Origin: a bacterium
GTDB lineage: Bacteria; CG2-30-53-67; CG2-30-70-394
Reading direction: 5' to 3'
Length of the DNA stretch: 23,080 nt
NCBI GenBank assembly: GCA_024278555.1
Contig: JAJRSX010000058.1
Span: forward strand, 1-23,080
Below the pieces are notes generated by a model. The model worked only from the letters and a program-made list of their open reading frames with translations. It was not told where the DNA came from and did not search any database. The translations under genes were made by a program, and so were the position numbers. Numbering within the stretch: the first letter of the stretch is position 1; each line of letters starts with the position of its first letter. Positions 3,153 to 12,022 of this stretch are shown piece by piece.

Positions 3153-3893
3153 ATGAAAGCTCTCCTCTCCCTCACCGCCGGCGTGGCCATGGCCGCCATG
3201 CTCGCCCCCACCACCGCCTCCGCCCTGATCGACAACACCGCGCATGACTTCTCGAACGCTGCGTGGAACTTCGGCTCCGGCGAGATCTGCCGTGTCTGCC
3301 ACATCCCGCATGACACCGAGAATCCCAACCTGGTGGACGGCGCCGGCAACCCGATCGAGCTGCTGTGGAACCGCGCCCTCGACACCACCACCACCTTCCA
3401 GCCGTACGCGATCTTCTCCACCGCCTCGGCCGGCACCATGCCGACGGTGGGCCAGCCTGACGGCATCTCCAAGCTCTGCCTCGGCTGCCACGACGGTGCC
3501 GTCGCCCTCGACGAGTTCGACGCCCAGTCCGACGGCTCCCGCCGGACGACCTGGTCCGGGACCGACACCTACGTGGGTGACGTGAACCCCGAGGCCCTGA
3601 TCCCGGCGATGGGCGTTGGCGACCTGCGCCGGACCCATCCGATCTCCGTGACCTACCCGTCCGGCCTCTTCGTCCACAACAGCAGCTCCTTCTCGCCCAC
3701 CAGCCGTCCCCTCGGCATGTCCGGGACCATCGGCGACGTCCTCGACAACGGCAAGGTGCAGTGCTCCACCTGCCACGACGTCCACGCCGAGGAGGCGATC
3801 GCGGGTACGCACCTTCTCCGCCAGGCGGTGAAGCAGTCCCTCGCCACCGACGGCCGGGCCTCCTCCCTCTGCCGGACCTGCCACCTGAAGTAA
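3153..3893 (+). CDS. Secreted tetraheme c-type cytochrome, OmcE-like (candidate nanowire subunit)
   Basis: The protein has 246 residues with a Sec signal peptide (MKALLSLTAGVAMAAMLAPTT region, cleavage near ASA at 22-24). Four CXXCH heme sites lie at residues 46-50, 109-113, 204-208 and 240-244, the last only two residues from the C-terminus. Landmarks are CHIPH, LLWNRA, VGQPDGISKLCLGCHDGAVAL, a HPISVTYP block with candidate distal His, KVQCSTCHDVH and SLCRTCHLK. This order and spacing match, from memory, the OmcE filament cytochromes of Geobacter. Polymerisation is inferred, not shown. The start has AGGAGG at 8 bases. Codon use is strongly C-ending, consistent with high expression. It has its own sigma-54 promoter and terminator. 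The next operon encodes likely partners, including a larger cytochrome whose N-terminus is paralogous. Confidence 0.85.
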   Translation: MKALLSLTAGVAMAAMLAPTTASALIDNTAHDFSNAAWNFGSGEICRVCHIPHDTENPNLVDGAGNPIELLWNRALDTTTTFQPYAIFSTASAGTMPTVGQPDGISKLCLGCHDGAVALDEFDAQSDGSRRTTWSGTDTYVGDVNPEALIPAMGVGDLRRTHPISVTYPSGLFVHNSSSFSPTSRPLGMSGTIGDVLDNGKVQCSTCHDVHAEEAIAGTHLLRQAVKQSLATDGRASSLCRTCHLK

Positions 3894-3915
3894 GGATGGC
3901 TTGATCATCAGGATC

Positions 3916-3950
3916 AAGGCCCCTGTACCCTCGGGTACAGGGGCCTTTTT
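3916..3950 (+). terminator. Strong intrinsic terminator after the tetraheme cytochrome
   Basis: A perfect 14-bp stem (3916-3929 with 3934-3947), a CTCG loop and a run of five T (3946-3950) form a textbook Rho-independent terminator. A smaller stem (TTGATC-N5-GATCAA, 3901-3917) precedes it. The terminator separates the cytochrome from the NHL operon; limited readthrough would give a high subunit-to-machinery ratio. Confidence 0.93.
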
Positions 3951-4099
3951 CGTGCGCCGCCTTGACCCCAATGAGGGCAGCGTGATATCTCAGCGCGCTC
4001 GCCCGCGGCCCAAGAATGGTCGTGGGGCCTCGCGATCGGCGCTCCATTGAAGCCACAATCGCGCTCTCTCGTCTCTCCTAAAGGTTTGAGGAGCAATCG

Positions 4100-5323
4100 A
4101 TGTCCTTCGTTTATAGGTGGTCTCTGCGGCGTGGCGGTTGGCGCCGTCTCTTCCTGCTGGCGGCGGCGGTGGGTTTGGCTGGGTGCGGCACGGTCTCCCA
4201 CGAGCTCCCCACCCGCTTCTTTCCGGAACCGCCGACGCCGCCACGGATTCAGTTCCTGCAGGCGATCCGTACCTCCAACGACATCGAGCCGCACACGAAG
4301 ATGGAGGGCTTTCTCTTCGGCAACATCGAGGTGCGTACCTTCGCCAAGGTCTACAGCGTGGCGGTCCACGACGGGGTGATCTATGCCGCCGACACCCAGC
4401 TCGGCTCCCTGGTGATCGTCGACCCGATCCACCAGAAGTTCCAGGCCATCGACGACCGGGGCGAGGGGGACATGCACCGGCCGGTCTACGTCGCCATCGA
4501 CGACGAGGGGACCAAGTACATCTCCGACTATGACCGGCAGCAGGTCCTGGTCTATGACAAGCGCGACCGATTTGTCCGTGCCTTCGGCTCGAAGGAGGAG
4601 TTCAGGCCCATTGGCGTGGCGGTCTACGATGAGAAGCTGTACGTCACCGATACCAAGGATCAAGAGGTCGAGGTGCTGGACAAACGCACCGGCGAGAAGC
4701 TCGCCACCATCGGCCACCCGGGCACCGCCCCCGGGGAGTTCTACAACCCGTTGGGCTGCACGGTGGACCGGGAGGGTAATCTCTACGTCACCGATATGTT
4801 CAATGCCCGGGTGGAGAAGTTCGACTCCGATGGGAAGTTTCTCTTTACCTTCGGTCGGCGTGGCGATCGCCCCGGTGATTTCGCCCGCCCGAAGGGGATC
4901 GCGGTGGACGACGACGGCTTCATCTACGTGGTCGACTCCGCCTTCGAAAACGTCCAGATCTTCACTCCGGACGGTAAACCGGCCCTCTTCTTCGGCGGCT
5001 TCGGTGGTCCCGAGGTCCCGGGTGCCATGTGGTTGCCATCGGGGATCGTCCTTACCCAGGACGCGAAGCTGATGGAGTACTACCGGCCGCGCTTCGACCC
5101 GGACTTCGAGGTCAAGTACTTGATCCTCGTCTCCAACCAGTTCGGTCCGTCCTACATCAACGTCTACGCCCTGGGGGAGGCGCGGCCGGGGACGCCTCTG
5201 GCGGAGGGCAAGGTGCGCCAGCGGTTCAAGGAGTCGAAGGCGAAGGAGGACCTGAAGCCGTCGAGCTTCACGACGCGGCCGCAGGGGCAGGGCGCGGAGG
5301 GGGAGGCGGCGCCGGGGAAGTGA
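4100..5323 (+). CDS. NHL-repeat beta-propeller lipoprotein
   Basis: The protein has 407 residues. Its N-terminus has basic residues, a hydrophobic stretch and a lipobox LAGC with the lipidated Cys at residue 29, so it is membrane-anchored. After a proline-rich motif (FPEPPTPPRIQFLQAI) come repeated NHL/6-bladed propeller units, e.g. GVAVYDEKLYVTDTKDQEVEVLD, GCTVDREGNLYVTDMFNARVEKFD and GIAVDDDGFIYVVDSAFENVQIF. The C-terminal tail is charged (KVRQRFKESKAKEDLKP). TGAGGAG lies 6 bases before the ATG. It is the first gene of the conduit/assembly operon; the next gene starts one base after its stop. Propellers of this kind accompany Geobacter cytochrome clusters (OscD-like in the omcS-companion set), where a role in filament maintenance was reported. 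That correspondence is inference. No obvious promoter stands out between 3951 and 4099; TTGACC at 3962 is only a weak -35 candidate. Confidence 0.88.
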   Translation: MSFVYRWSLRRGGWRRLFLLAAAVGLAGCGTVSHELPTRFFPEPPTPPRIQFLQAIRTSNDIEPHTKMEGFLFGNIEVRTFAKVYSVAVHDGVIYAADTQLGSLVIVDPIHQKFQAIDDRGEGDMHRPVYVAIDDEGTKYISDYDRQQVLVYDKRDRFVRAFGSKEEFRPIGVAVYDEKLYVTDTKDQEVEVLDKRTGEKLATIGHPGTAPGEFYNPLGCTVDREGNLYVTDMFNARVEKFDSDGKFLFTFGRRGDRPGDFARPKGIAVDDDGFIYVVDSAFENVQIFTPDGKPALFFGGFGGPEVPGAMWLPSGIVLTQDAKLMEYYRPRFDPDFEVKYLILVSNQFGPSYINVYALGEARPGTPLAEGKVRQRFKESKAKEDLKPSSFTTRPQGQGAEGEAAPGK

Positions 5324-5324
5324 G

Positions 5325-5996
5325 ATGAGCCGACCTCTTGGCGCCTGGTCCTGGGTGGCTCTCCTACTCCTCGCCCTGGCGGGGTGTAGCGCGGTGGAGC
5401 GCCACCGGGCCCTCTCCCTGGTCTTCGACGGGGTGCCGCCTTTGGGTGGGGTGCAACCGCAGGAGAACAAACCGCTCCGCAACGCCCCGCGGGAGGATAC
5501 GGTCGCCTCCCTCGCCAAGGAGATGGGGGTGGAGGCCGACTTCGTCGGCCCGGTGCAATCGAAGTTCCACCGTCAGGTGGTCTACAAGCACCCCCCCTTC
5601 GCGGAGAAGCGGTGTGGTGGCTGCCACCTCCTGGCCAAGGGGAGCAGTGCCATGCCCACCGGGGTGGCCTTCGTCCTCCCGAAGCAACAGCTGTGCGGTA
5701 AGTGCCACAAGGATAAGCGGCAGGAGGCGCTCGCCTCGGCCAACCAGTGGCTCCACGCCCCGGCCCAGTACGGCGCCTGCCTCAAGTGCCACAACCCCCA
5801 CGAGAGCCCGAACCCGTACATGGCCCAGAAGGGACCGGTGCAGGCGCTCTGCTACCAGTGCCACGACCAGGCGCGCCTCACCGCCACGGAGGCCCACGCC
5901 GCCATCGGCGAGCGTGACTGCACCGACTGCCACGACCCCCATGGCAGCCAGCGGCAGTACATGCTGCTGCCGGAGGTGGAGGGGGGCACCGGTTAG
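5325..5996 (+). CDS. Pentaheme c-type cytochrome lipoprotein
   Basis: The protein has 223 residues. Lipobox LAGC puts the acylated Cys at residue 21, and five CXXCH sites lie at 97-101, 124-128, 152-156, 176-180 and 199-203. The mature N-terminus carries the motif RHRALSLVFDGVPPL, which I recognise from lipoprotein cytochromes coupled to outer-membrane porins. The second half has CHNPH and CHDPHGS patterns of NrfB/doubled-CXXCH type. The ATG lies one base after the preceding stop, so translation is coupled. With the beta-barrel gene 63 bases downstream, the most likely job is the periplasm-facing heme module that feeds electrons into or through the outer-membrane barrel. Partner identity is inferred from the operon. 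TAG is the natural stop. Confidence 0.88.
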   Translation: MSRPLGAWSWVALLLLALAGCSAVERHRALSLVFDGVPPLGGVQPQENKPLRNAPREDTVASLAKEMGVEADFVGPVQSKFHRQVVYKHPPFAEKRCGGCHLLAKGSSAMPTGVAFVLPKQQLCGKCHKDKRQEALASANQWLHAPAQYGACLKCHNPHESPNPYMAQKGPVQALCYQCHDQARLTATEAHAAIGERDCTDCHDPHGSQRQYMLLPEVEGGTG

Positions 5997-6059
5997 CCAT
6001 TCGGGGTTCTACGGATCGTCGTCTCCTTGCCGATGAGCCTTGTGGCCACCTTCCTATCC

Positions 6060-7766
6060 ATGTCTCTGCACACCTCCCCCCCCCCCACCGTGTCTTTTCC
6101 CGGAAAGGCGCGCCACAGCCGTCTGTGGCTCGTGTCGCTTGTGGGGGCGCTCCTCCTCCTCACCGTGGTGCCGGTGCGGGCATCGCGCCTCGACTACCTG
6201 CGGGTCCAGCCTATTACCCCCTTTCATGTCATGACCCACGGTGCGCGTTTCGATCTCGGTTTCGAGTGGGAGGACGACTTCCGTGACAGTGGTGGCGGGG
6301 GGGGCGCCGGGGACCAGAACTGGGCCCTCCTGGAGACCCTGGTGGTGGGGATGGACAGCTACTTCTTTCACCCCCTCCTTGTGGAGATGGTGGGCGATGT
6401 CGGGTTTGATCTGCGCCAGGAGTGGTTTGAGCCGGACGGATCGGCCAGCGGCACGATTCGCAATAACTCGGTCCTCTACGACCTCGACCTTTACTTCCTG
6501 CAGCAGAAGCCCGTCCACGGCTCGGTGTCGGTGGGGAGCAACGTCGTCCAGACGAACGCGAGCTTTTTTCGCAGCCAGCGGTATCAGAACGATTACCAGC
6601 GGGCCGCCCTGAACTACTGGAACCGCCTCTTCCCCCTCGACCTCACCTACTCGCGGATCCAGAGCCGGAGTGAGGGGACGGCGAGCCTTGACAGCGACGA
6701 GGATATTCTCGCCCTTGAGGTGCGCAACGAGACGAAGCACGCGGCGAGCCAACTCCACGTCCAACGGGAGACGCGCAGCCAGCCGGAGGGGGGGCTCGAC
6801 GCGACCACCAACACGGCGAACTTCTCCAACATTTTGCGTGCTGGGGGCTCCCGCTACTTCCTCCTCACCCAGGCGAACTGGAGCGAGCAGCAGGGGAGCC
6901 AGTCGATCCGTATGAGCCGCCTCGGCGAGGATCTCACCCTCCACCACACCACGAGTCTGGAGACGAACTACAGCTACCTTTTCGACAAGATCAACCGTGG
7001 AAGCTTCACGCGCGCGAACGCCACGTCACCCACGATTGCTCAGGCCCAGCAGAGCGGCCTCGACGAGCACGTCACCTACAAGGCACGTCTCACCCACCGC
7101 CTCTACGCCAGCGTCGCCACCAACCTCTTCGTGGAGAAGAACAAGGAGCGCCTCGACGCCGGCTTTCAGGACGTTACCTCGGGTGGCTTCAACATCAGCT
7201 ACCGTAAGCGGATTGGGGTAGGGACCATCGCCATCGGCTACGGCATGAGCAAGTTGCGTAACACCCAGGACCTCTCGGGGACCACCATCGCGATCCAGGG
7301 CGAGCGCCACACCTTCGGCGAATCACCGGAGGGGGGACGGGTGGTCACCCTCGGACACGATCTGATCGACGCCGCCACCATCACGATTGCCGACGCCGAC
7401 GGCTTTCCCATCCTCGATCCCCTTACCGGGGCGGAGATCAGCGAGGGGCTGCACTATCAGATCGAGCAGGTAGGGTCGGTAACCCGTATCCGCCTCCTGG
7501 CCCCCGACGGTCTCTTTCTCCTCGGCCGGGAGGTCTTTGTAAGCTACACCTTCCAGCCCCTGCCACCGGTGAAAATCGACACCCTGGCACGGAGCTATAA
7601 CCTCGGTTGGGAGGTGGGCAATATTTGGCGCATGTACTACGAGGCGATGCGCTCCGATCAGAGGTTGCGTGAGGGAGAGGCCCTGGGGCGCCTGGACAAT
7701 ATCAAGGACCGTCGCTATGGCGCCGACCTCCACTGGGGCGTCTCCACCACCCGTGTTGAGCGCTAG
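6060..7766 (+). CDS. Outer-membrane beta-barrel (porin-cytochrome conduit type), N-terminal part ending at an in-frame TAG
   Basis: The product has 568 residues with a signal peptide (RLWLVSLVGALLLLTVV, cleavage near VRA-S). It continues with alternating polar/aromatic strands typical of a large barrel: LDLYFLQQKP, YWNRLFPLDLTYSRIQ, TSLETNYSYLFDKIN, FNISYRKRIGVGTIAIGYG. An inserted soluble-looking domain (VVTLGHDLIDAATITIADADG to LLGREVFVSYTF) is shared by several Desulfuromonadales barrels. Translation stops at TAG 7764-7766, but the same frame stays open and barrel-like to 8168, so this is probably a truncated version of a ~704-residue protein. The start is uncertain: ATG 6060 is preferred for signal-peptide geometry, with ATG 6033 and TTG 6027 also in frame and no clear Shine-Dalgarno for any. 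A run of 11 C (6076-6086) lies just after the start. Confidence 0.78.
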   Translation: MSLHTSPPPTVSFPGKARHSRLWLVSLVGALLLLTVVPVRASRLDYLRVQPITPFHVMTHGARFDLGFEWEDDFRDSGGGGGAGDQNWALLETLVVGMDSYFFHPLLVEMVGDVGFDLRQEWFEPDGSASGTIRNNSVLYDLDLYFLQQKPVHGSVSVGSNVVQTNASFFRSQRYQNDYQRAALNYWNRLFPLDLTYSRIQSRSEGTASLDSDEDILALEVRNETKHAASQLHVQRETRSQPEGGLDATTNTANFSNILRAGGSRYFLLTQANWSEQQGSQSIRMSRLGEDLTLHHTTSLETNYSYLFDKINRGSFTRANATSPTIAQAQQSGLDEHVTYKARLTHRLYASVATNLFVEKNKERLDAGFQDVTSGGFNISYRKRIGVGTIAIGYGMSKLRNTQDLSGTTIAIQGERHTFGESPEGGRVVTLGHDLIDAATITIADADGFPILDPLTGAEISEGLHYQIEQVGSVTRIRLLAPDGLFLLGREVFVSYTFQPLPPVKIDTLARSYNLGWEVGNIWRMYYEAMRSDQRLREGEALGRLDNIKDRRYGADLHWGVSTTRVER

Positions 7767-8168
7767 AACCATCGGTCGCTTCGCACCCCCTTCGACACGA
7801 CGCGTTTGAGCGAGACCCTCACCTTCCCGATCGGTCTGGACACCCACGTCAACGTGGTGGGGAGCTACGAGAAGCGCCATTCCGCCGGGGTGGCGGAGAC
7901 CACCGCCGGTGCCCTGACCGGCCGCCTCACCTGGCGTCCCTCCAACAATCTCCTGTGGAACGGCGATGCCACCTACCGCAACAGCTCGGTGGTGGGCAAC
8001 TCGGAGCGCGAGTACGAGTTCAACACCGACCTCACCTGGAGCTTCCGCCACGCCGAACTGCGCCTCTACTATCGAGCCCTTCAGGGTTGGCACGAGATCA
8101 CCGGTAAGGAGAGGCGCCAGTACTTCTTCCTCCAGATCCGCCGGTACTTCGGACAGCGAAAGGTGTGA
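7767..8168 (+). pseudogene. C-terminal part of the outer-membrane beta-barrel, separated by the TAG codon
   Basis: Reading on in the same frame after TAG gives 133 further residues (NHRSLRTPFDTTRLSETLTF to FLQIRRYFGQRKV). These contain four to six amphipathic strands and an aromatic-rich final strand of the kind the BAM complex recognises. There is no frameshift between the two parts. The only in-frame start soon after the stop is a TTG at 7806 with no ribosome site, so independent translation is unlikely. Its TGA (8166-8168) lies one base before the next gene's ATG, which looks like translational coupling. The options are a nonsense mutation, a base-call error or stop readthrough. Confidence 0.75.
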
Positions 8169-8169
8169 T

Positions 8170-9273
8170 ATGGCGACCATGTGGAGACACCGGAGGCGCT
8201 CCCTTGGGCTGGCCGTCTGCCTGGCGATGGCGATGGCGTGCGTCCACGCTGCGCGGGTCGTGCCGCCGCCGCCTCCTAACCCCGCGGCCGGCCACCTGGT
8301 GTGGCCGCCGGCGCCGGCGCGGCCGCGGATCACCTACCTGCGCGATGTCATCCTGTCGCGTGACCGGCGACCGCCGCGCGGCTTCTGGCACCGGCTTGGC
8401 CGCCTCTTCGGCAAGGCGGCGCGGCCGCGGATCATCCGGCCCTACGGGGTGGCGGTGGGCGACGAGGGGGCGCTCTACATCGCTGATCCGGGAGCGTTCC
8501 GCGTCCACATCCTCGATCTCAGCGACGGGAGCTACCGTTTTCTCCCGGACCGCCGCGACCATCTCGCCCTCCTCTCGCCGGTGGGGGTGGTGGCGGACGG
8601 CGCCGGGGGGTGCTTCGTGAGCGATTCCGCCGCCGCCAAGGTTTACCGTTTCGACGCGGGCGGCCGTCTGCAGGCGACGATCGAGCGGTTTCACCGCCCC
8701 ACCGGCGTTGCCTTCAACCAACACCTCGGCCGTCTCTACGTAGTGGATACGGGAGACCACCGGGTACGGGTCTTCACCGCGACTGGGGACCACCTCTTCG
8801 ACTTCGGCTTCCGGGGCGACCAGGCAGGCGCCTTTAACTACCCCACCAATATCTCCGTCACCACCGCGGGCACCATCTACGTGGTGGACTCGATGAACTT
8901 CCGGGTCCAGCGCTTTGACCCCGATGGGAACCCCCTGGGGAGCTTTGGGGCCGCGGGAGACGGTCCGGGCACCTTCTCCAAGCCGCGCGGCGTGGCGCTA
9001 GACAGCGATGGCCACATCTACGTGGCCGACGCCACCTTCGACAACGTCCAGATCTTCGACGGCGAGGGGCGGGTCCTCCTCTACTTCGGCTCCACCGGGA
9101 CCGGTCCGGGCCACTTCTACCTCCCCGCCGGGGTGGCGATCGATGACAGGGACCGGATCTACGTGGCCGATTCGTACAATCGGCGAGTCGAGGTCTTCCA
9201 GTACCTGCGTGACCCGCTTGCGGCGCCCATGGGAGCCGGGGCGACGCTTCCCCCGAAGGAGGTGGAACGATGA
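8170..9273 (+). CDS. Second NHL-repeat beta-propeller protein, exported
   Basis: The protein has 367 residues. A basic N-terminus (MWRHRRRSLGLAVCLAMAMAC) leads to either a weak lipobox (Cys24) or a signal peptidase I site (VHA-A). Next is a proline-rich segment, WPPAPARPRITYLRDV, like the WPPPP-x-PRI-x-YL signature of the first NHL protein, then NHL blades such as GVAFNQHLGRLYVVDTGDHRVRVF, NISVTTAGTIYVVDSMNFRVQRFD, GVALDSDGHIYVADATFDNVQIF and GVAIDDRDRIYVADSYNRRVEVF. It is a paralog of the 4100-5323 product. The start is one base after the barrel's distal stop, and the stop overlaps the next ATG (ATGA). It is probably periplasmic or membrane-attached and acts with the adjacent 12-heme cytochrome; the exact role is unknown. 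Confidence 0.88.
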   Translation: MATMWRHRRRSLGLAVCLAMAMACVHAARVVPPPPPNPAAGHLVWPPAPARPRITYLRDVILSRDRRPPRGFWHRLGRLFGKAARPRIIRPYGVAVGDEGALYIADPGAFRVHILDLSDGSYRFLPDRRDHLALLSPVGVVADGAGGCFVSDSAAAKVYRFDAGGRLQATIERFHRPTGVAFNQHLGRLYVVDTGDHRVRVFTATGDHLFDFGFRGDQAGAFNYPTNISVTTAGTIYVVDSMNFRVQRFDPDGNPLGSFGAAGDGPGTFSKPRGVALDSDGHIYVADATFDNVQIFDGEGRVLLYFGSTGTGPGHFYLPAGVAIDDRDRIYVADSYNRRVEVFQYLRDPLAAPMGAGATLPPKEVER

Positions 9274-10979
9274 CCAGACATCAATCTCTGTGGCGTGCCG
9301 GCCTGGCGGCGGCTCTCCTCCTCCACGCCGCCTCGGCGGCGGCGGTAATGGACATCGAGCTTACCAAGCACAATCTGTCGCTCACCGGTCCGGGCCAGAT
9401 CCGCGCCGTCTCCATGGACCGCATCTGCGTCTTCTGCCACACCCCGCACAATGCCGCTTCCAACACCCTCCTGTGGAACCGGGCCGACACCACCACCACC
9501 TACATCCCCTACAGCTCCTCCACCGCGCCGCAGGTGGTCGGCCAGCCCACGGGGAGCTCGCGTCTCTGCCTGTCGTGCCACGACGGCACCATCGCCCTCG
9601 GGGCGCTCAACTCGCTCCCCACCGAGGTGGCCATGACCCAGCGCTTCCTCGGCATCGGCGCTGGAGCGATCGGCGCCGACCTCTCCGACGACCACCCAGT
9701 CTCCTTTCTTTACGATGTGGCCCTGTCGAATGCCAACCCCGAGTACAAGGACCCGTCACTCCTCCTGGAGCCGATCACCCTCGACAGCAACGGCGAGCTC
9801 CAGTGCTCGACCTGTCACGATGCTCACGACAATACCTACGGCAAGTTCCTCTACATGGACAACACCGCCTCGGCCCTCTGCCTCCAGTGCCACCAGCCCA
9901 CAGGTTGGCCGCTGTCGCCCCACAATCTGGCCTCCAACACCTGGAACCACGTCCTCCCGGACCCGTGGCCCCACACCACCTGGTCCACGGTGCACGACAA
10001 CGGGTGTGAGAGCTGCCACCGGCCCCACAGCGCCGGTGGCCATGCCCGCCTCATGAACACCTTCACCGAGGAGGACAACTGCCTCCCATGCCACAACGGC
10101 AACGTGGCGCCGCAGAACATCGCGGCCCAGTTCCAGAAGCCCTCGTCCCACCCGGTCGCCGCCACCGCCGGGGTCCACGACCCCACCGAGCAGGCGGCGA
10201 CCATGGGGCGCCACGTGGAGTGTGCCGACTGTCACGACGCCCACCAGGCGCAGCCGGGGAGCGGCACCCCGCCAGCGGTGAGCCCCCCCATCGCCGGGGT
10301 CTCCGGGGTCGACAGCGCCGGCATCGAGGTCTCCGTCGCCACCAACCAGTACGAAATCTGCTTCAAGTGTCACGCGGATACCGCCCAGGGGCTCACTCCG
10401 GTACCGCGCCAGGTCGTAACCCTTAACAAGCGGCTCCAGTTCGACATCACCAACCCCTCCTTCCACCCGGTGGAGGGGCCGGGGGTGAATCCCAACGTCC
10501 CGAGCCTCATCCTCCCCATGACCAGCGCCTCGGTGATCTACTGCACCGACTGCCACAGCAACGACGCCGGTCCTGGAGCCGGTGGCACCGGCCCGGCCGG
10601 CCCCCACGGGTCGAACTACCCATATCTGCTTGAGCGCCAGTACGTGATGACCGACAACACGGCGGAGGCACCCACGGTCTATGCCCTCTGTTACAAGTGT
10701 CACGATCGCAACAACATCCTCGCCGACCAGTCCTTCTCCAAGCACAGTCTCCACCTCGGCCCCCTGGTGAACGCCACCTGCGCCGCCTGCCACGATCCCC
10801 ACGGGATCAGCGGCGCTCAGGGCAACGCCACCAACAATGCCCACCTGATCAACTTCGACACCTCGGTGGTCTCGCCCAACTCCGCCGGGCTCCTCAAGTA
10901 CGAGTCCCTGGGTACCTTCACCGGCCGCTGCTTCCTCTCCTGCCACGGCCGCGACCACAACCCATCGGTCTACCCGTGA
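9270..10979 (+). CDS. Large multiheme cytochrome (11 CXXCH plus one CX3CH) with OmcE-like N-terminal domain
   Basis: The protein has 569 residues with a Sec signal (GLAAALLLHAASAAA, cleavage near residue 25). CXXCH sites start at residues 53, 100, 179, 204, 246, 271, 318, 364, 425, 474 and 504; a final CFLSCH at 554-559 has one extra residue and may bind a twelfth heme. Residues about 50-210 reproduce the tetraheme cytochrome at 3153: CVFCHTPH, TLLWNRADTTTTYIPYS, VGQPTGSSRLCLSCHDGTIAL, DHPVSFLYD, LQCSTCHDAH and ALCLQCH. The rest has CHDAH/CHDPHG-type sites. AAGGAGG (9256-9262) precedes the ATG, which overlaps the upstream stop. It is probably exposed on or outside the outer membrane as the terminal conduit cytochrome. 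The shared N-terminal domain suggests it could dock to or seed the filament. That is inference. Confidence 0.88.
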   Translation: MTRHQSLWRAGLAAALLLHAASAAAVMDIELTKHNLSLTGPGQIRAVSMDRICVFCHTPHNAASNTLLWNRADTTTTYIPYSSSTAPQVVGQPTGSSRLCLSCHDGTIALGALNSLPTEVAMTQRFLGIGAGAIGADLSDDHPVSFLYDVALSNANPEYKDPSLLLEPITLDSNGELQCSTCHDAHDNTYGKFLYMDNTASALCLQCHQPTGWPLSPHNLASNTWNHVLPDPWPHTTWSTVHDNGCESCHRPHSAGGHARLMNTFTEEDNCLPCHNGNVAPQNIAAQFQKPSSHPVAATAGVHDPTEQAATMGRHVECADCHDAHQAQPGSGTPPAVSPPIAGVSGVDSAGIEVSVATNQYEICFKCHADTAQGLTPVPRQVVTLNKRLQFDITNPSFHPVEGPGVNPNVPSLILPMTSASVIYCTDCHSNDAGPGAGGTGPAGPHGSNYPYLLERQYVMTDNTAEAPTVYALCYKCHDRNNILADQSFSKHSLHLGPLVNATCAACHDPHGISGAQGNATNNAHLINFDTSVVSPNSAGLLKYESLGTFTGRCFLSCHGRDHNPSVYP

Positions 10980-11005
10980 GCCACACTTTCTTTCCTGGAG
11001 CCCCC

Positions 11006-12022
11006 ATGGCCCGTTGCCTTGCAATTCTTCCCCTCCTTGCCCTCTTTCTGTTGCCCCTCCCGGCGGCGGCGGAGGGGGCGCCGGGAGGGGTGACCGATAC
11101 CGACGTGGTGGTGCGGGTGAACGGCACCGACATCACCGTCGGTGAGGTGGCGGCAGAGGTTCAGCACCTCCTGCCCGCGACCTTCTTTCACAACCGCGTC
11201 GACCCGGACAAGGTAAAGCAGCTTCAGGGTCAGGCGGTGGAATCGTTGATTGCCAAGGAGCTGAAGCTCCAGGAGGCAAAGCGGCTTGGGATCACCGTGC
11301 CGGAGGCGGAGATCGAGGCGCGGCTCGACGAGGCGATCGCCAAGTTTCCGAGCCGCGAGGCCTTTGACGAACGGTTGAAGAAGGGGGGCATCACCCGCGA
11401 CAGCGTGAAGGCGGAGATCCGCCGGCGAAAGCTCATCGCGCGGGTCGAGGCGCAGGCGGTGGCGGGGATCGAGGTGGGCGAGAAGGAGGCGCGCGCCTTC
11501 TACGACGCCAACCCAGCGCGCTTCGTGGAGCCGGAGCAGCTCCACCTCAAGGAGATCCTCTTGAAGGTCGCCCCTCTGGCGACCCAGGAGGACGCCAAGG
11601 TGGTCAAGGCGAAGGGGGATTGGCTGGTGAAGCAGCTTCGTACCGGCGCCATGACCTTTGATGACGCCGTCGCCCAGCATTCGGAGGAGAATAAAGAGAA
11701 TGGTGGTGATCTCGGATGGCTCCACAAGGGTCAGCTCAGTGAGGAGATCGAGGCGGAGGTAGTCAAGCTCAAGCTGGGAGAGGTGGCCGGCCCCTTCAAG
11801 GTCTTCAAGGGGTACTACATTCTCCAGCTCATCGATCGGAAGCCGCCGCGCACCGCCCCCTTTGAGGAGGTGCGGGACAAGCTGATCCGGCAGCTGCAGG
11901 AGAGGCGCGAAGAGGCGCAGCGCAAGGCGTGGCTCGACGGCCTACGCGAGAAGGCGAAGGTCGAGATCCTCATGCCGGAGGCCCTGGCCACGACGGAGAC
12001 GGGGGCGGCGAAGGGAGAGTAG
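11006..12022 (+). CDS. Periplasmic peptidyl-prolyl isomerase/chaperone, SurA-PpiC (parvulin) type
   Basis: The protein has 338 residues with signal peptide MARCLAILPLLALFLLPLPAAA. A SurA-N-like helical chaperone region follows (about 30-165: VVVRVNGTDITVGEVAAEVQ, ESLIAKELKLQEAKRLGI), then one parvulin domain (about 175-285) with LHLKEILLKV, MTFDDAVAQHSEENKENGGDLGWLHKGQL and GEVAGPFKVFKGYYILQLIDR. The C-terminal helix is charged. GGAG lies 5 bases before the ATG at 11006; the frame is open further upstream but only inside the cytochrome gene. It is the last gene of the operon. In the Geobacter osc cluster a prolyl-isomerase chaperone (OscH) folds the filament cytochrome; I propose the same role for proline-rich heme proteins here. 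Confidence 0.9.
   Translation: MARCLAILPLLALFLLPLPAAAEGAPGGVTDTDVVVRVNGTDITVGEVAAEVQHLLPATFFHNRVDPDKVKQLQGQAVESLIAKELKLQEAKRLGITVPEAEIEARLDEAIAKFPSREAFDERLKKGGITRDSVKAEIRRRKLIARVEAQAVAGIEVGEKEARAFYDANPARFVEPEQLHLKEILLKVAPLATQEDAKVVKAKGDWLVKQLRTGAMTFDDAVAQHSEENKENGGDLGWLHKGQLSEEIEAEVVKLKLGEVAGPFKVFKGYYILQLIDRKPPRTAPFEEVRDKLIRQLQERREEAQRKAWLDGLREKAKVEILMPEALATTETGAAKGE

Follow-up and report, generated by a model that had tools for sequence, protein, structure and literature searches.

The stretch of DNA analysed here (the window; 23,080 nucleotides) carries a run of plus-strand genes (3153-12022) in which a cytochrome, an NHL propeller, another cytochrome, an outer-membrane barrel, a further NHL propeller, a large cytochrome and a SurA-like isomerase follow one another, and which is partly kept in all relatives examined (Table 1). 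This cytochrome cluster is adjoined on the minus strand by an IS200-like (Y1) transposase (307-1140) and an AAA_14/DUF4143 ATPase gene (1208-2536).

Table 1. Features of the barrel locus, in coordinates of the window.
Feature	Position	Strand	Remarks
Multihaem cytochrome c, doubled CXXCH	3153..3893	+	
NHL beta-propeller lipoprotein-like gene	4100..5323	+	
Multihaem cytochrome c immediately before the barrel	5325..5996	+	neighbour kept in six relatives
Outer-membrane beta-barrel gene, whole frame including the single internal TAG	6027..8168	+	start uncertain: TTG 6027 or later
In-frame TAG	7764..7766	+	residue 571 of 704 when the frame is counted from 6054; inside predicted strand 564-575
Distal barrel part, 133 codons and terminal TGA	7767..8168	+	seven further predicted strands; relatives match to the end
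NHL beta-propeller gene immediately after the barrel	8170..9273	+	start uncertain; on the expected side in five relatives
Large multihaem cytochrome c	9270..10979	+	
SurA/PpiC-type peptidyl-prolyl isomerase	10970..12022	+	

Between the opening of the barrel frame at 6027 and its TGA at 8166-8168, the in-frame TAG at 7764-7766 is the sole stop. An earlier look at these letters (the sequence-only reading) had claimed that this lone TAG is followed by 133 sense codons, that the distal part ends one base before the next ATG with an aromatic-rich last strand, and that selection on the distal part looks intact, with the same composition. The first claim was confirmed by the frame, the coding score and the relatives described below. 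In agreement with the second, a single base separates the TGA from the ATG at 8170, and the last strand is indeed rich in aromatic residues (RQYFFLQIRRYFGQRKV). As to the third, the distal part scored as coding in the barrel frame only (+0.31 per codon, GC3 0.87; the other five frames were negative), which is similar to the proximal part (+0.25 per codon, GC3 0.84), and the homologues align to the C-terminus. The open run of 133 codons is by itself weak evidence, with a chance of about 4% by base composition.

The barrel in relatives and as a predicted fold

Six homologues of the barrel were found in the class (22-31% identity), five of them full length and the sixth matching the second half only, and the matched stretch was free of stops in all six. 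The cytochrome gene upstream of the barrel is present in 6/6 relatives and the NHL propeller gene after it in 5/6, the sixth (L004) reaching its contig end there. In these relatives the TAG column holds Arg, Asn, Lys, Lys, Lys and Glu. The sequence-only reading had predicted TAC, CAG, GAG or TGG as the sister codon; TAC and TGG occur in no relative, the residues seen being Lys, Arg, Asn and Glu. Because the homologues in five relatives run through to the same C-terminus, the barrel does not normally end at the TAG and, with the neighbourhood also conserved, the relatives confirm that the locus is one full-length barrel gene. The opposite arrangement, in which a barrel ending at the TAG is followed by a separate downstream gene, could make use of an alternative start in the same frame (TTG 7806), but the relatives have a single continuous ORF across the TAG, and in the model described next the TAG lies within a predicted strand of one barrel. 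We therefore rejected the separate gene, to which we assign practically no probability.

An AlphaFold2 model built from seven sequences (mean pLDDT 79.9, pTM 0.60) predicted a barrel, in which about 28 strands were counted, with the TAG in about strand 21 and seven strands after it. Among the listed fold matches, the highest TM-score, though a low one, was to MtrB of the Mtr complex (PDB 6r2q chain B; 0.41-0.43, with 0.41 by query length). The gene resembles this MtrB-type porin of porin-cytochrome conduits in encoding a predicted large barrel beside multihaem cytochromes, and its product is a putative electron conduit across the outer membrane. It is unlike the MtrB-type porin in that no Pfam or NCBIfam match to the barrel was found, in its about 28 predicted strands, and in having NHL propeller genes on both sides. 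A scan of the genome contigs with the barrel found no relative. In clusters of D. ferrophilus, multihaem cytochromes are paired with NHL proteins without an apparent porin (PMC9769857).

Decoding of UAG in this genome

We then considered how a UAG codon would be read. If UAG were reassigned, one would expect RF1 to be lost, TAG to be rare as a terminator, and one residue to stand behind the TAG sites. RF1 is intact (prfA, 533.9 bits), TAG terminates 225 of the 569 called genes (the calls include some doubtful ORFs), and the residues differ from site to site (see below). The sequence-only reading had named pyrrolysine genes and an amber suppressor tRNA as possible means of readthrough, and neither came to light. 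For PylS (TIGR02367), every match in the eight genomes of the class, of which the present one is a draft, stayed below the cut-off and was to a class II synthetase. No CUA anticodon was found among the 48 tRNAs of the draft (RF00005 for finding, ARAGORN for anticodons) or with patterns that are not exhaustive for odd tRNAs. A tRNA-Pyl-like pattern, whose hits were inspected in part, gave counts near those of the reversed control. The genome does contain a tRNA-Sec, with anticodon TCA. Pyrrolysine and a CUA suppressor tRNA were thus rejected as searched for and not found, and a UAG-decoding selenocysteine was rejected because of the TCA anticodon.

Dedicated recoding by any of these three routes is accordingly very improbable. 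In its favour, several in-frame TAGs occur in one genome whose lineage has tRNA-Sec, a combination also seen in pyrrolysine-using deltaproteobacteria (PMC8318568). Unlike in those bacteria, however, no PylS or CUA tRNA was found and the interrupted genes are not methylamine methyltransferases; the residues replaced at the different sites also argue against it. A CUA tRNA may lie in sequence that is absent from the draft.

A separate observation concerns an ArsM-like methyltransferase gene (L118:468-1274, minus strand; contig C50 of this genome, G000), which has an in-frame TGA at 611 where paralogues have Cys. Since the genome has a tRNA-Sec, selenocysteine is plausible at this TGA; no SECIS-like fold beyond those of shuffled sequences was found after it.

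Lone stops in other genes

The PylS search had chanced on a TAG inside lysS, and we therefore undertook a wider survey for lone stops. It covered stretches totalling 870 kb (28% of the genome, a draft of 211 contigs) with the 569 called genes, and a stop was listed when the sequence on either side of it scored strongly as coding in one and the same frame, which gave thirty candidates. After gene junctions had been discarded by eye, seven TAG, one TAA and one TGA (the last maybe selenocysteine) were kept as interior stops in otherwise intact genes, counts that are approximate and slightly biased as the barrel and lysS were known before the survey. The TAGs interrupt the barrel, lysS, an FAD-binding oxidase, a beta-propeller, CbbQ, a multihaem cytochrome and a response regulator, and the lone TAA lies in an MMPL/RND protein. 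Codons of a sister species were available at four sites, namely GAA in lysS, CAG in CbbQ, GAG in the response regulator and GAG in the RND protein, corresponding to Glu, Gln and Glu at the three TAG sites and Glu at the TAA site. With these codons differing, and with Lys, Arg, Asn or Glu at the barrel site, one common residue behind the TAGs was rejected. No sequence context common to the stop sites was found. Reciprocal tblastn, in which matches were mostly in antisense frames and three loci were chosen for known stops, revealed no convincing frameshifts beside the stops.

The distribution of stop types can be compared with mutational opportunity. At 69.5% G+C, the one-step paths from the codons of this genome to a stop lead to TAG in 70%, to TGA in 16% and to TAA in 14% of cases. 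The seven TAG, one TGA and one TAA seen are therefore what random substitutions would be expected to give. First-base changes make up 68% of the paths to TAG and are thus the commonest random route. As a control, a genome of the same genus showed one doubtful lone-stop case in 490 kb, and 331 kb of two other relatives showed none. When all eight sites are counted, the excess over these relatives gives p = 0.04, and p = 0.12 once the barrel and lysS are dropped; it is thus statistically weak and by itself proves little. In the same-genus genome we noted an in-frame TAG in the apparent P-loop region of an AAA-type ATPase gene that seems degraded downstream (L143:17214, minus strand; G001 contig C10).

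The most telling case is lysS (L054:8005-9642, plus strand; G000 contig C56), whose in-frame TAG at 9010 falls in the middle of the catalytic domain. The closest named lysS is that of Nitrospirae bacterium CG2_30_70_394 (92% identity over 169 residues, 90% in DNA), and on the strength of this one gene the window probably belongs to the CG2-30-70-394 lineage, a name that PMC12501874 gives to a phylum. Only this single full lysS was found in the genome, other matches being far weaker or partial. A cell with its sole LysRS cut mid-domain should not live, which is the strongest single argument in our data, and at least the lysS stop is therefore either an error or read through.

Origin of the barrel TAG

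The sequence-only reading had left three options for the barrel, namely a dead conduit, a sequencing error or readthrough. Of these, error is the best supported, because lone stops strike unrelated genes in a random pattern that includes the sole full lysS, whereas for readthrough no dedicated machinery was found. We consider that in this draft assembly, itself probably metagenome-derived, the barrel TAG most likely stems from one wrong base or from a minority variant that entered the consensus; with no decoding rule in sight, this is the simplest common cause, and the lone TAG most likely does not reflect a novel use of the genetic code. The case resembles the interrupted coding sequences surveyed in M. 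smegmatis, in which, as here, lone in-frame stops in otherwise intact genes that are full length in relatives affected about 1-2% of genes (PMC1852416). There, resequencing and proteomics decided the cases and many were frameshifts, whereas here we deal with single-base stops, and we infer the wrong base from the assembly sequence. The main doubt on the error reading is the implied substitution rate of 4e-4 to 6e-4 per base, which is high even for a low-coverage assembly. In addition, several of the interrupted genes may be ones that the cell can do without and that really are broken.

It is possible, though on balance unlikely, that the TAG is a genuine recent nonsense mutation that cuts the barrel in strand 21, leaves it unassembled for want of its C-terminal strand and costs the population its conduit. 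Bacterial genomes commonly have about 1-2% of their genes interrupted, and resequencing of 73 such genes in M. smegmatis traced 28 to sequencing errors and showed several to be authentic (PMC1852416); the weak excess over relatives also fits this explanation. Since the distal part is still intact, any loss of the barrel would have to be recent. Against a true nonsense mutation stand the like defect in the single full lysS, which is not a tolerable null, the conserved gene order around the barrel in relatives, and the lack of accompanying frameshifts. We think it rather improbable that a real TAG is read through by near-cognate Gln, Lys or Glu tRNAs, yielding enough full-length barrel, LysRS and other products despite RF1. 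It is equally improbable, in the wider form of the same idea, that UAG within genes, even in lysS, is tolerated by this bacterium because ordinary tRNAs read through it, with RF1 still terminating other genes at that codon. The sister codons at four sites are NAG or NAA, mostly one first-base change away, as such decoding would favour, but first-base changes are also the commonest route by which random substitution gives TAG here. In-frame stops under purifying selection are widely reported in bacteria (PMC7918605), and as in those prokaryotic genes the part downstream of the barrel TAG still looks selected; some of the reported stops are conserved between species, however, whereas the sister genome has a sense codon at each of the four sites compared here. 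RF1 would compete with any readthrough, because TAG still ends so many genes. One of the sites is a TAA, the sites have no context in common, and a leaky supply of an essential synthetase would be costly.

If the TAG is an error or a minority variant, the living cell would have a sense codon at 7764-7766, and a full-length barrel of, as modeled, about 28 strands would be made and would work together with the products of the multihaem cytochrome and NHL propeller genes beside it. More generally, lone in-frame TAGs in high-G+C drafts can mimic recoding, since a stop reached by a single base change is there usually TAG. Error and recoding can be told apart cheaply by a survey of other genes, by comparing stop types with mutational opportunity, by the codons of sister genomes, and by asking whether an essential gene is interrupted. 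Should the TAGs nevertheless prove real, it would be very surprising to see a UAG within an essential synthetase gene while the cell retains RF1.
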